A stretch of DNA of 64,000 nucleotides from Streptomyces zhihengii (GTDB lineage: Bacteria; Actinomycetota; Actinomycetes; Streptomycetales; Streptomycetaceae), in the NCBI RefSeq assembly GCF_016919245.1, contig NZ_JAFEJA010000001.1:4479501-4543500 (forward strand). The letters run 5' to 3'. Within the stretch, counting starts at the first letter, position 1; every line of letters begins with the position of its first letter. Below the pieces are notes generated by a model. That model worked only from the letters and a program-made list of their open reading frames with translations. It had not been told where the DNA came from and searched no databases. The position numbers were made by a program, and so were the translations under genes. Below are positions 49,636 through 55,867 of the stretch, one piece after another.

Positions 49636-50763
<1,128 letters not shown>

Positions 50764-50941: not shown

Positions 50942-51015
50942 GCCTCCTTAGCTCAGCTGGCCAGAGCACCGCTCTTGTAAAGCGGGGGTCGTCGGTTCGA
51001 ACCCGACAGGGGGCT
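50942..51015 (+). tRNA. tRNA-Thr, anticodon TGT
   Basis: Cloverleaf: acceptor GCCTCCT/AGGGGGC with one G-T pair, D-arm GCTC..GAGC, anticodon arm CCGCT-CTTGTAA-AGCGG (anticodon TGT at 50976-50978) and T-arm GTCGG-TTCGAAC-CCGAC. The 3' CCA is encoded (51016-51018). It reads ACA threonine codons. A terminator follows directly. Confidence 0.95.
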
Positions 51016-51023
51016 CCAGCGCG

Positions 51024-51056
51024 AAAGGCCCCCGGCCGTGAAGGCCGGGGGCCTTT
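51024..51056 (+). terminator. Terminator after tRNA-Thr
   Basis: Perfect 14-bp arms (AAAGGCCCCCGGCC and its complement) around a 5-nt loop, ending in TTT. Confidence 0.85.
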
Positions 51057-51260: not shown

Positions 51261-53396
51261 ATGGGGCGGCGTTCGGGTGGGTTGATTTCGTCGTGGGCTG
51301 AGGCGCAGCGCCAGCAGCAGCGACAGCGCGAGGCCCAGCAACTGGCGGTGTTGCGGCAGCAGCGTGAGCACGACCGGAGGCAGCGGGAGCATGCCCGCGA
51401 CATGGCGCGGATGCACCGGGAGCAGCGGGCCGCGTACCGCAGTCGGCGGGAGCAGGAGGTACTGGTCCGTACACAGGAGATCGACGCGCAGGTCGCCGCG
51501 CTGGAGGGGCTGCTGGCCGAGGGGTGTGCGGCGGCTCCGTTCAGAACGGAGACCCTGCGGCGTGAGGAGACCATCGAGCCGTTCGCGCCGGGTGCGCTGG
51601 CCCAGCCCGTGGTGATGCCGGACCCCTCCCGGTACCAGGCTCACGGGGGCGCCTGGACCGCCGCCGGCAGGGCGCAGGCTCAGCAGGAGGCGCGGGCGCG
51701 CTACGAGCACGACTGGTACGCGGCGCAGGCGGCCGAGTCCCGGCGGCTCGCGGACCTGGAGACTTATCGCCGGCAGTACGACGCATGGGCCTCGGCCCGT
51801 CTCGCGGAGATACGGACGCACAACGCCGGAATCGCGGAGATGGTGCGGGCGCTGCGTGCGGGCGAGCCGGACACCGTCGTCGAGTACTTCTCGGCCGCCC
51901 TCTGCGCGTCGGCTGCCTGGCCGGACGGGTTTCCGCGCCAGGTCTCGGCCGCGTACGACCGTGCGGCCCGCCAGCTCGTCCTCGACTGGGAGCTGCCGGC
52001 CTACCAGGCGGTCCCCGAGGCGAAGGGCGTGCGCTACCTGGTGGGGACGGACCAGGAGAAGGTGGTGCCGCGACCGGTCGCCCAGCGCCGCGCGCTCTAC
52101 CGCGACGTCCTCGCCCAGAGCGTGCTGCTGGCCGTGCGGGAGCTGTTCGCGGCGGACGAGCACGGCGTGCTGGACGGGATCGTGCTCAACGGCTTCGTCG
52201 ACGACGTGGATCCGGCGACCGGACGGGCGGGGCGGGTCGTGGTCGCGTCCCTGTCGGTCGGCCGGGCGGAGTTCCAGGCCGTGAACCTCGCCCTGGTCAG
52301 CGCGGTGGACTGCCTCACCGGCGGACTGGGCGGGCACCTCTCGGCCCGCCCCGATCAGCGCGCCGCCGTCCGTCCCGTCCGCTCCCCGGCGCAGGTCGGG
52401 TCCGGGGTGGTGTCCCACGGGGACGGGGAGGAGCCGGATCTTCTGGCGATGGACCCGATCGCCTTCGAGGGCCTGGTGGCCGAGCTGTTCCGCGCGCGGG
52501 GCTTCCAGGCGATGACGACGCAGCGGTCGAACGACGGCGGAGTCGACGTGGACGCCGTCGATCCCGATCCCATCAGCGGCGGAAAGATCTTCGTGCAGGT
52601 GAAGCGGTACCGCAGGACGGTGCCGGTGGCGGCGGTCCGGGAACTGTTCGGCACGGTGCAGGCGGGTGGCGCCAACAAGGGCGTGCTGGTGACGACGTCG
52701 GGTTTCGGGCCGGGGGCCTACACCTTCGCCAACGGCAAGCCGCTGACCCTGGTCTCGGGTGCGGAGCTGGTGGAGCTGCTGCACACGCACGGCCTGCGCG
52801 GACGGCTCGGGGACGGTACGGGCCCGGCTCCCTCCACCGTTGCGGTGCCGGATCCGGACGTGCCGGATGTCTCCGACGGCTCCGACGACGCGGGTGAGGG
52901 GGACTTCGACGAGGACTTCAACGTCCTCGGGATGTCCTGGCAGGGCGGCGTCGCACTGGACGTGTGTGCGCTGGTCTGCGCGGGCGGACGGGTGCTCGGG
53001 GACGAGCACTTCGTGTTCTTCAACAACCACGCGACGCCCGAGGGTTCGGTGCGCATGATGCGGTCCTTCGCCGGGGACCGGGCGGCTATCCGGGTCGCCT
53101 TCGACCGACTGCCCGCCGCCGCGGACCGGCTGGTGCTGGTCGCGGCGATAGACCCCGAGGTGAATCCGGAGGCCGACCTCGCGAGTTTCACGGATGCCGG
53201 GATCCGGCTGCGGGACGCTTCGGGTGCCGAGCTGGACCGGCTGGTCGTGTCGGACGGGCGGCCCGGTGAGACGGCCCTGGTGCTGGGTTCGTTCCGGCGC
53301 CGCGCGAGCGGGGACTGGGACTTCGTGCTCGGCGGCAAGGGGTACGGCGGAGGGCTGGAGGAACTCGTGGGGGACTTCGGCATCGAGGTGGCGTGA
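51261..53396 (+). CDS. Coiled-coil / Mrr-type nuclease / TerD fusion protein
   Basis: The 711-residue protein starts at ATG 51261 behind GGGGAGAGG; GTG 51252, GTG 51228 and TTG 51213 are in-frame alternatives. Residues 10-85 are a Gln/Arg-rich coiled coil. Residues 190-370 form an unrecognised region with a regular alpha/beta pattern. Residues 398-510 are an Mrr-type PD-(D/E)xK domain: DPIAFEGLVAELF, Asp in NDGGVDVDAVD (D429), QVK (Q446, K448) and a following VRELFGTVQAGGANKGVLVTT. Residues 560-711 are a TerD-like domain (VALDVCALVCAGGRVLGDE, FVFFNN, DFVLGGKGYGGGLEELV). A stress- or phage-defence role is inference. Confidence 0.8.
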   Translation: MGRRSGGLISSWAEAQRQQQRQREAQQLAVLRQQREHDRRQREHARDMARMHREQRAAYRSRREQEVLVRTQEIDAQVAALEGLLAEGCAAAPFRTETLRREETIEPFAPGALAQPVVMPDPSRYQAHGGAWTAAGRAQAQQEARARYEHDWYAAQAAESRRLADLETYRRQYDAWASARLAEIRTHNAGIAEMVRALRAGEPDTVVEYFSAALCASAAWPDGFPRQVSAAYDRAARQLVLDWELPAYQAVPEAKGVRYLVGTDQEKVVPRPVAQRRALYRDVLAQSVLLAVRELFAADEHGVLDGIVLNGFVDDVDPATGRAGRVVVASLSVGRAEFQAVNLALVSAVDCLTGGLGGHLSARPDQRAAVRPVRSPAQVGSGVVSHGDGEEPDLLAMDPIAFEGLVAELFRARGFQAMTTQRSNDGGVDVDAVDPDPISGGKIFVQVKRYRRTVPVAAVRELFGTVQAGGANKGVLVTTSGFGPGAYTFANGKPLTLVSGAELVELLHTHGLRGRLGDGTGPAPSTVAVPDPDVPDVSDGSDDAGEGDFDEDFNVLGMSWQGGVALDVCALVCAGGRVLGDEHFVFFNNHATPEGSVRMMRSFAGDRAAIRVAFDRLPAAADRLVLVAAIDPEVNPEADLASFTDAGIRLRDASGAELDRLVVSDGRPGETALVLGSFRRRASGDWDFVLGGKGYGGGLEELVGDFGIEVA

Positions 53397-53460: not shown

Positions 53461-54852
53461 TCAGTGGCGTCCCGAGATGCGGTCGGCCCAGGTCGCGAGG
53501 CGCGGGGTGGTCGGGGTGTGGGTGGTGGATTCGCGGTGGTCGGCGTGGCGGTAGGCGGTGTAGAGGGTGCGGACGCCGAGCCAGCGCAGGGGTTCGGGTT
53601 CCCAGGTGCGGACCTTGTGGCCGACCCAGGGGAGGGCGGTGAGGTCGGTGGGGCCGGACTGGCCTGAGTCCTGCTGGATGAGGTCGCGCAGGGTGCGGGC
53701 GGCGAGGTTGGCCGTGGCGACGCCGGAGCCGACGTAGCCGCCGGCCCAGCCGAGGCCGGTGGAGCGGTCCAGGGTGACGGTGGCGCACCAGTCGCGGGGG
53801 ACGCCGAGGACGCCCGACCAGGCGTGGTCGACGGCCGTGCCGGCGAGGCGGGGGAAGAAACGGACGAGGATCTCGCGCAGTTCGGCGACGGTCGCCGGGT
53901 GGGTGCGGCCGTCGTTGTCGGTGCGGGAGCCGTAGCGGTAGGGGACGCCCCGGCCGCCGACGGCGATGCGGTCGTCCGCGGTGCGCTGGGCGTACATGTA
54001 GGCGTGGGCCATGTCGCCGAGGGCCTCGCGGCCCTCCCAGCCGATCTCCGCCCACACGGACTCGGGCAGCGGCTCGGTGACGATCATGGAGGAGTTCATG
54101 GGGAGCCAGGTGCGGCGGTGGCCCTTGAGGGAGGCGGTGAACCCCTCGGTGCAGCGCAGGACGTAGGGCGCGCGGACGGTGCCGTACGGGGTGACGGCGT
54201 GCTTCGGGCGGATCTCGGTGACCGGCGTGGACTCGTGGACCGTGACGCCGAGCGCCTCGACGGCCGCCGCGAGGCCCTTGACGAGTTTGGCGGGGTGCAG
54301 CCGGGCGCCGTGCGGGGTCCAGCTCGACGCCACCGCGCCGGTGACGCGGATGCGCTCGGCGGTCTCGCGGGCGCCGAGGAGCCGGCGTTCCTTCTCCCCG
54401 AAGGCGATCTCCACCGCGTGGAAGGCCTTGAGGCGGGCGAGCTGGGCCGGGGTCTGTGCGATCTCCAGGACGCCGCCCCGGTGGATGTCGGCGTCGATGC
54501 CCTCGGCGTCGGCGACGCGGACGACCTCGCCGACGGTGTCGTTCATGGCCTGCTGGAGGCGGACCGCCGCCTCGTGGCCGTGCAGCTTGGCGTAGCGGTC
54601 GCGCCCGGCGATGCCGTTGTAGAGCCAGCCGCCGTTGCGGCCGGAGGCGCCGTACCCGCAGAACCGGGCTTCGAGGACGGTGATGTTGAGGAAGGGGACG
54701 GCCTTCTTCAGGTAGTACGCCGTCCACAGGCCCGTGTATCCGCCGCCGACGATGCAGACGTCCGCCGAGGTGTCGCCGGGGAGGGGTTCGCGGGGAGCGG
54801 GTGTGCCGTCCTGCGCGTACCAGAACGATATGCCGCCGTTGACGGTGTTCAT
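53461..54852 (-). CDS. FAD-dependent amine/glycine-type oxidoreductase
   Basis: The 463-residue protein belongs to the D-amino-acid oxidase-like (DAO) family. It has the FAD-binding CIVGGGYTGLWTAYYL at about 33-48, EARFCGYGASGRNGGW (the loop conserved in gamma-glutamylputrescine oxidase-like proteins) and GLGWAGGYVGSGVATANLA near the C-terminus. ATG 54852 is the first start in the frame after the promoter region. The substrate is unknown. Its genomic company, including a diamine-acetyltransferase-like gene, makes amine or polyamine catabolism a fair guess. Confidence 0.85.
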   Translation of the reverse strand: MNTVNGGISFWYAQDGTPAPREPLPGDTSADVCIVGGGYTGLWTAYYLKKAVPFLNITVLEARFCGYGASGRNGGWLYNGIAGRDRYAKLHGHEAAVRLQQAMNDTVGEVVRVADAEGIDADIHRGGVLEIAQTPAQLARLKAFHAVEIAFGEKERRLLGARETAERIRVTGAVASSWTPHGARLHPAKLVKGLAAAVEALGVTVHESTPVTEIRPKHAVTPYGTVRAPYVLRCTEGFTASLKGHRRTWLPMNSSMIVTEPLPESVWAEIGWEGREALGDMAHAYMYAQRTADDRIAVGGRGVPYRYGSRTDNDGRTHPATVAELREILVRFFPRLAGTAVDHAWSGVLGVPRDWCATVTLDRSTGLGWAGGYVGSGVATANLAARTLRDLIQQDSGQSGPTDLTALPWVGHKVRTWEPEPLRWLGVRTLYTAYRHADHRESTTHTPTTPRLATWADRISGRH

Positions 54853-54958
54853 GTGGATCGCCGCTTCCCCTGCCGGTCCGTTGCCGCCGGGTGGCGGCGC
54901 GCGTGTGCGCGTGGCGGGAATGTACTGCTCCCGCCCGCGGCCCGCGACAGGTGGTCCG

Positions 54959-54964
54959 TACGAT
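54959..54964 (+). promoter_or_regulatory. -10 box (TACGAT), leaderless-type, kinase gene
   Basis: TACGAT, 6 nt, then GTG 54971. Confidence 0.5.
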
Positions 54965-54970
54965 CGGCGG

Positions 54971-55867
54971 GTGATCGAGATCCCCCGTGAGCTGGTCGCC
55001 TCCCTGCTGTCGTACGGCGAGGAGTCCGGGCGCGCGCTGCTGGAGGTGCTGCCCGGCCGGGCGGAGGAGTTCCTGGCGCGGTGGGGCCTGCGGGTGGACG
55101 GGCGGCCGCTGTGCGGGCGGGTGTCGCTGGTGCTGCCGGTGGTCCGCGCCGACGGCACGCGCGCGATGCTCAAGCTCCAGGGGCGGGACGAGGAGACCGA
55201 GGGCGAGTGGCTGGCGCTGCGGACCTGGGCGGGCGACGGGGCGGCGCTGCTGCTGGAGCACGACGCGGACACCGGGACGCTGCTGCTGGAGCGGGTGGTT
55301 CCGGGGCGGCACCTGTCGTCGGTGGCCGACGCCCGCGCGGCGACCCGGACGCTCGCGGGGCTGCTGGCGCGGCTGTCGGCGGTGCCGGCGCCCGAGGGGC
55401 TGCGGCGGCTTTCGGACGTCATGGACCGGATGCTGGCGCAGGTGGCCGACCGGGTGCCGCTGCTCGCGGAGGAGGCGGAGCGGCGACTGCTCCTGGACTG
55501 CGCGGCGGCCGTGCGGGAGGTCGCGGGGGAGCCGGGGGACCGGCTGCTCCACTGGGACCTGCACTTCGACAACGTGCTGGCGGGGGAGCGGGAGCCGTGG
55601 CTGGTCATCGATCCGAAGCCGCTCGCCGGTGACCCGGGGTTCGAGCTGATGCCGGCGCTGTGGAACCGCTTCGCGCCCGGGGAGGTGCTCTGGCGTTTCG
55701 ACCTGCTGACCGAGGCGCTCGGTCTCGACCGGGGGCGTGCGCGGGCGTGGACGCTGGGCCGGGTGCTCCAGAACGGGCTGTGGGCGTGCGAGGGCGCGGA
55801 GGCGGAGGCGCCGGTCCGGCTGGACGCCGCCCAGGTGGGCATCGCCCGGACGCTGCTGGAGAGGTAG
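54971..55867 (+). CDS. APH(6)/streptomycin 6-kinase-like phosphotransferase
   Basis: The 298-residue protein has the APH(6) catalytic loop LLHWDLHFDNVLAG, with Trp in place of the more common Gly, and a DPKPLAGDPGFEL metal-binding segment, as in the streptomycin 6-kinase and hydroxyurea-resistance family. Homologues are often chromosomal with unknown natural substrates, so resistance is not certain. GTG 54971 follows a leaderless-type TACGAT box. It is divergent from the FAD oxidoreductase gene. Confidence 0.85.
   Translation: MIEIPRELVASLLSYGEESGRALLEVLPGRAEEFLARWGLRVDGRPLCGRVSLVLPVVRADGTRAMLKLQGRDEETEGEWLALRTWAGDGAALLLEHDADTGTLLLERVVPGRHLSSVADARAATRTLAGLLARLSAVPAPEGLRRLSDVMDRMLAQVADRVPLLAEEAERRLLLDCAAAVREVAGEPGDRLLHWDLHFDNVLAGEREPWLVIDPKPLAGDPGFELMPALWNRFAPGEVLWRFDLLTEALGLDRGRARAWTLGRVLQNGLWACEGAEAEAPVRLDAAQVGIARTLLER

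Follow-up and report, generated by a model that had tools for sequence, protein, structure and literature searches.

Gene and domain organization

The window analyzed here, a 64,000-nucleotide stretch of Streptomyces zhihengii DNA, contains a single intact 711-codon open reading frame whose product consists of a helical hairpin, an alpha/beta domain, an Mrr nuclease domain, a linker, and a TerD domain, in that order (Table 1). The original prediction had described a coiled coil, an unrecognized domain, an Mrr nuclease, and a TerD domain joined in one polypeptide, and this four-part architecture was confirmed by translation, Pfam, and the predicted structure. The hairpin is modeled as two long helices (residues 7-82 and 134-199), with pLDDT values mostly above 90. 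Neither the helical part (residues 1-200) nor the middle part (residues 196-396) gave a credible Pfam match, and the structure list for residues 196-396 contained no clear PDB match and no SRA entry.

Table 1. Features of the Mrr-TerD gene and its immediate surroundings
Feature	Position in window	Strand	Basis
Complete gene, 711 codons plus stop	51261..53396	+	Translation; Pfam; homologues of similar length with the same start
Residues 7-199, presumed coiled-coil hairpin	51279..51857	+	Predicted structure; no credible Pfam match
Residues 200-386, alpha/beta middle domain; presumed DNA- or modification-recognition part	51858..52418	+	
Residues 395-510, Mrr_cat PD-(D/E)xK nuclease domain	52443..52790	+	Pfam PF04471, E = 4.2e-32
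D429, presumed catalytic acid	52545..52547	+	Invariance across homologues
Q446-V447-K448, presumed QxK motif	52596..52604	+	Invariance of Q and K across homologues
Residues 511-553, disordered linker of variable length	52791..52919	+	pLDDT, alignment
Residues 554-711, TerD domain without the usual N terminus or acidic GDNLTGEGEGDDE-type loop	52920..53393	+	
tRNA-Thr(TGT), 243 bp upstream of the gene; neighbor, outside the system	50942..51018	+	ARAGORN
GC-rich hairpin ending in TTT, terminator-like, between tRNA-Thr and the gene	51024..51056	+	By-eye reading
FAD-dependent oxidoreductase (DAO family), downstream neighbor	53461..54852	-	Pfam PF01266, E = 6.7e-57
MalK-type ABC transporter ATPase, upstream neighbor	49636..50763	-	Pfam PF00005, PF17912

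Loci were compared using the window and the best 80 of 365 loci encoding a relative, grouped by common flanking DNA (81 loci in total). In 80 of these 81 rows, the linker columns (512-552) hold between 20 and 74 residues, with a mean identity of 42%, and the linker is predicted with pLDDT below 50 at residues 519-549. We take the domain order, the TerD fold, the constraint on TerD, and the invariance of the presumed catalytic residues to be established by the sequence together with the structural model.

The terminator-like hairpin upstream of the gene is absent from the terminator-scan list. The upstream ABC ATPase is, by name, presumably MsiK. The oxidoreductase gene is adjoined by an open reading frame (54734-55867, +) that matches PF04655, a family of aminoglycoside/hydroxyurea resistance kinases (E = 3.7e-39).

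Nuclease core and similarity to type IV restriction enzymes

The nuclease domain scored 111.1 bits against PF04471, for which the curated cut-off is 21, and its predicted structure aligns with 1y88, AspBHI, and MspJI. Residues E403, D425, D429, Q446, and K448 are identical across all 81 loci (80 named loci and the window), and the same five residues are kept in 48 of 48 rows of an alignment that includes 23 TerD-less and 4 short proteins. Among 121 fusion proteins (the window protein and 120 listed homologues), D429, Q446, and K448 are invariant, while V447 is replaced by alanine in eight. The presumed catalytic residues are thus intact, as had been proposed, and show no free variation among homologues.

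Residues 14-510 match the PADLOC mREase_IV family PDLC03663 (putative type IV) over profile positions 22-526 of 544, with an E-value of 6.8e-64, on which the match was judged without PADLOC's own score rule. The members of this family and the TerD-less proteins of Nonomuraea and Nocardia named restriction endonuclease have the same helical-middle-Mrr order and the same catalytic residues as the window protein, to which the TerD-less rows are 31 to 34% identical. They differ in the tail, as no TerD was present among the Pfam domains of the 120 TerD-less relatives listed or the three scanned. The protein had been put forward as the mark of an undescribed system. This was dropped because residues 14-510 fit an existing type IV family and the protein is common in Streptomyces. 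The component domains are likewise already known, and the protein is entered in databases as a restriction endonuclease. No description of an Mrr-TerD fusion was found in the literature searched, the scope of which did not extend to the main Ter review (Anantharaman 2012), where one may be mentioned.

EcoKMrr of Escherichia coli shares the Mrr_cat domain with its PD-QxK site, but its N terminus is a winged helix according to PMC12707154, whereas the window protein has the hairpin and alpha/beta domain and, in addition, TerD. MspJI and AspBHI use an SRA-like recognition domain (PMC12707154, PMC3874153), and none was recognized in the window protein. No DNA methylase was found among the eight window neighbors scanned, in agreement with the expectation that type IV enzymes have no methylase partner. 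E. coli Mrr is described as acting on DNA containing 6mA and 5mC in vivo (PMC12707154), and the Mrr-related Sco4213 (ScoA3Mrr) of Streptomyces coelicolor is tabulated as acting on m6A and not on m5C in in vivo tests (PMC3874153). Similarity of the nuclease does not in itself fix a modification preference, LlaGI being the example (PMC3874153). The nuclease of the window protein is probably modification dependent.

Distribution and origin of the fusion

A search of about 5.8 billion protein sequences returned 1871 proteins at an E-value of 1e-3 among 8000 scored. All 120 listed homologues carry both Mrr_cat and TerD at 66 to 96% identity, and those with names are nearly all "restriction endonuclease" from Streptomyces. 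In 150 Streptomyces genomes, counted as rows among the matches listed, full-length copies occur in 52 (one with an in-frame TAG), partial copies occur in 4 (one cut by a contig end), and a TerD-less relative with 34 to 36% identity occurs in at least 7, one of which also has the fusion. The fusion is common in Streptomyces relatives and is not unique to the window.

Several damaged or partial copies were seen. The copy at locus L171 has one in-frame stop, and only TerD-end pieces were listed for two genomes (G013 and G125). A further genome (G508, a single contig of 10.1 Mb) has equal-scoring partial copies near both ends, C1:237082-237891 (-) and 9909665-9910474 (+), in opposite orientation as in terminal inverted repeats.

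Among 296 genomes drawn at the class level, 37 matched at an E-value of 1e-35, 14 from the window's genus and 23 from other families. In none of the 23 other-family genomes does a match extend across TerD; one match, which contains two stops, runs as far as profile position 571. When 101 genomes were drawn at the family level, 67 matched, from 10 of 17 genera, and the matches listed include one or more full-length fusions from every one of these 10 genera. Only 3 of 72,556 plasmid records contain 80% or more of the query at a single location. One plasmid copy of the fusion (L243; NZ_CP109170.1, 728787-736692) is accompanied by an AIPR family protein, separated from it by two genes, with a PIN-domain protein next to it. 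Plasmid relatives from Methylobacterium and Agrobacterium match up to residue 504. Among the genomes searched, the TerD fusion is confined to the window's own family, and TerD-less relatives are found in other actinobacteria, on alphaproteobacterial plasmids, and on viral contigs. Since TerD-less relatives are common, the nuclease core does not need TerD.

Short proteins of about 357 amino acids, mostly named Kitasatospora, have Mrr followed by TerD as in the window protein, but they are without the helical hairpin or middle domain. Some sources call these proteins (L217-L220; P0242-P0281) "stress response protein SCP2."

The TerD-bearing and TerD-less proteins are split on one branch in the Mrr tree (48 rows; 98/90), and the same split is obtained with the middle domain plus Mrr (44 rows; 100/100). 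A single fusion event therefore explains the split most simply. The TerD tree (40 rows) places five fusions, all from one other genus group, among stand-alone TerDs, and a starred branch (98/93) sets them apart from the rest. Their TerD may have been replaced or may have strongly diverged, a choice that is blurred by long branches.

TerD domain

The TerD call survived the profile search, with both a PF02342 match and the TerD fold present. The match starts at profile position 37, so that the N-terminal segment is missing, and alignment with stand-alone TerDs of the same genome showed that the fusion TerDs are without both this segment and the acidic GDNLTGEGEGDDE loop. The same two features, together with the lack of adjoining ter genes, distinguish the fusion TerD from the TerD proteins 3ibz and 2kxt. 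The acidic loop of TerD is a calcium-binding site. A pattern for it matched none of the 81 rows, none of the 121 fusion proteins, and none of the 15 fusions or short forms from other genera, compared with 7 of 15 stand-alone TerDs of this genome, which has 16 TerD matches. Sensing by the TerD part, as originally suggested, is therefore not upheld for calcium; canonical calcium sensing by the fusion TerD is doubtful, and the label of calcium sensor should not be transferred to it. About 1.1 kb past the window end lies a stand-alone TerD gene (G000:C1:4544610-4545170, locus L004) whose product has the acidic loop.

Mean pairwise identity is 64% for the helical part, 67% for the middle domain, 84% for Mrr, 42% for the linker, and 74% for TerD (800 sampled pairs from 80 of the 81 rows, omitting the copy with a stop at L171). 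TerD is thus conserved better than the N-terminal half. In the 10 other-genus proteins scanned, of which eight are diverged fusions and two are short forms, TerD also scored above the Pfam cut-off in every case. The TerD module is evolutionarily maintained.

This conservation bears on a rather unlikely reading in which the protein is a plain type IV restriction enzyme and TerD is a stabilizing or oligomerizing tail that carries no signal. Such a tail would be consistent with the nearly end-to-end fit of residues 14-510 to the PADLOC family, with the long and variable linker, with the missing acidic loop, and with the position of one other genus group's TerDs elsewhere in the TerD tree, as if the tail drifts or is replaceable. 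However, TerD is more conserved than the N-terminal parts and is kept in the 10 other-genus proteins, and the shorter Mrr-TerD form retains these two domains. A regulatory TerD, which we favor, agrees with this maintenance; what may count against it is that the best-known property of TerD is possibly absent, as judged from the missing acidic loop.

Genomic context and inheritance

The context of the window is common to 34 of the 81 loci, with the oxidoreductase in 32 and the ABC ATPase in 25; within the stretch examined, 23 loci have both, 9 have the oxidoreductase only, and 2 have the ATPase only. The remaining 47 loci fall into 13 groups (of 12, 11, 8, 4, 3, and 2 loci and seven singles), giving 14 contexts in all, some of which could be merged by a looser grouping cut-off. 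In the 25 loci of the window's context with tRNA-Thr in the stretch, the tRNA lies 87 bp to 7.5 kb from the gene. Five loci, four from the group of 11 and one singleton, have a tRNA-Arg(CCT) upstream of the gene, at distances of 138 bp to 5.7 kb.

The distances between gene copies follow those between the neighboring oxidoreductases (Mantel r = 0.905; maximum of 2000 shuffles, 0.363; 30 of 34 loci comparable), indicating that the gene is an old resident at the window's locus. The gene has a mean distance of 0.261 versus 0.149 for the neighbor and is thus more diverged. In 64 of the 81 loci, the nearest relative belongs to the locus's own group, against a shuffled mean of 18. The gene seems to move rarely and alone and then to stay.

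The tRNA-Thr had been regarded as an insertion position. The best copy of the last 30 nucleotides of the tRNA within the window, up to 900 bp past the gene, has 19 of 30 positions identical. A repeat of the tRNA 3' end was found in just 2 of the 25 loci, L152 (30/30) and L201 (27/30), and in both it lies between the tRNA and the gene. A fresh insertion at tRNA-Thr was rejected on the Mantel correlation and this placement of the repeats, and the tRNA is no evidence of recent insertion. At L152 (2470-9640), about 7.1 kb on the tRNA side of the gene is bounded by the tRNA-Thr 3' end and the perfect 30-nucleotide copy. This tRNA looks to have been used by an integrative element, and the gene is outside that element.

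The oxidoreductase was found in 20 of 30 gene-less genomes searched with it. One of these loci (L083) is an empty site, with about 56 bp separating tRNA-Thr from the stop codon of the oxidoreductase gene. In another genome without the gene (L089:1378-1428), a remnant resembling the 3' half of tRNA-Thr (39/45) near the oxidoreductase suggests past integration. The remaining gene-less loci have no tRNA within the 1.5 kb examined.

Inheritance together with the neighbor at this locus fits a resident gene better than a fast-moving defense gene, which speaks against a defense reading. Long vertical residence would also suit a role in Streptomyces development or DNA processing, such as degradation of the chromosome in dying hyphae, and the S. 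coelicolor TerD-domain gene tdd8 is involved in differentiation, according to the title of the paper describing it. We nonetheless consider such a role highly improbable, as full-length copies are listed in just 52 of 150 Streptomyces genomes, and plasmid copies and several loci would be unusual for a developmental gene. The same patchy presence and relocation (14 flank groups and 3 of 72,556 plasmids), together with the greater divergence of the gene than of its neighbor, are reasons for the type IV reading that we prefer.

Neighboring genes

The neighbors of the 81 loci comprise 1263 proteins in 601 clusters, as called by a simple gene caller. Only two generic clusters occur in at least 3 of the 14 contexts; from reading their sequences, we take them to be a response regulator and an MFS protein. 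The gene thus stands alone, as originally described, with no specific recurring partner in the flanks examined, and it is plausibly self-contained. By Pfam, the eight window neighbors scanned are an ABC ATPase, a DAO oxidoreductase, a kinase, an acetyltransferase, a dehydrogenase, an amine oxidase-like protein, DoxX, and a nucleotidyltransferase, with no ter genes among them.

We also asked whether homologues cluster with defense genes, as had been suggested. PADLOC models matched few of 111 neighbors: mad8 (two members) and mad3, SspH, an oxidoreductase model, and two Csa3 models (one each). The scan used an E-value of 1e-10 and covered 12 of the 81 loci, drawn from 164 proteins of 18 loci; it had no control set, so that neither enrichment nor absence is established, and no clear clustering was seen. 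A defense island is not supported for these loci. In the sample scanned, weak defense-gene company counts against a defense role.

A solitary gene with no recurring partner would also be compatible with a nuclease triggered by stress or damage and acting on the cell's own DNA, in which TerD would couple envelope or oxidative stress to Mrr, the chromosome would be nicked, and a damage response would follow. TerD proteins are described as belonging to stress systems (PMC7824862), and E. coli Mrr is reported to induce SOS after pressure via an oligomeric switch, thought to be a tetramer-dimer change (PMC12707154). We rate this as a rather unlikely explanation: no stress-gene cluster recurs as a neighbor, the TerD is not of the acidic-loop kind, and the TerD-less relatives represent a nuclease core without such control.

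Proposed function and significance

The explanation that we consider somewhat better than even is that the gene encodes a solitary, single-protein, type IV-like restriction endonuclease in which TerD most likely regulates the nuclease. This reading is supported by the Mrr and TerD profiles, the fold matches, which include the modification-dependent AspBHI and MspJI, the PADLOC family, and the invariance of the presumed catalytic residues with and without TerD. The helical hairpin and the alpha/beta domain would determine the oligomeric state and recognize the target, most likely foreign DNA that carries modifications, which the Mrr domain would cut; we infer such cleavage, the preference for modified DNA, and a role against phages or plasmids from these similarities. 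One actinobacterial family would have gained the C-terminal TerD on a flexible linker. TerD, which we likewise infer to affect the nuclease, would most likely regulate it through binding of a ligand or metabolite, docking to other stress proteins, or a shift in oligomeric state, for which E. coli Mrr provides a precedent (PMC12707154), and it may modulate or localize the nuclease.

A more specific version, in which a soluble signal (the nucleoside-like metabolite proposed for Ter systems or another stress ligand) is received by the TerD tail and the protein acts as a one-protein ligand-gated DNase, appears to us distinctly improbable. TerB and TerD are described in PMC7824862 as domains that bind ligands and might be sensors of a nucleoside-like signal, and TerD has been counted among the nucleotide-binding domains of conflict systems (PMC7159879). 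If this version is true, a ligand-gated Mrr would be an analogue of signal-activated nucleases such as Can2 and would join the Ter stress network to DNA destruction.

For the restriction endonuclease that we favor, the wider meaning lies in both halves of the protein. The molecular role of TerD, an abundant domain, is to our knowledge poorly understood. Because TerD is here fused to a nuclease with a measurable activity, a single protein and a small set of mutants would suffice to test a TerD function. Should the enzyme restrict foreign DNA, about one-third of the Streptomyces genomes surveyed, by the count of listed full-length copies, would possess such a barrier, which would matter for genetic work in antibiotic-producing Streptomyces.
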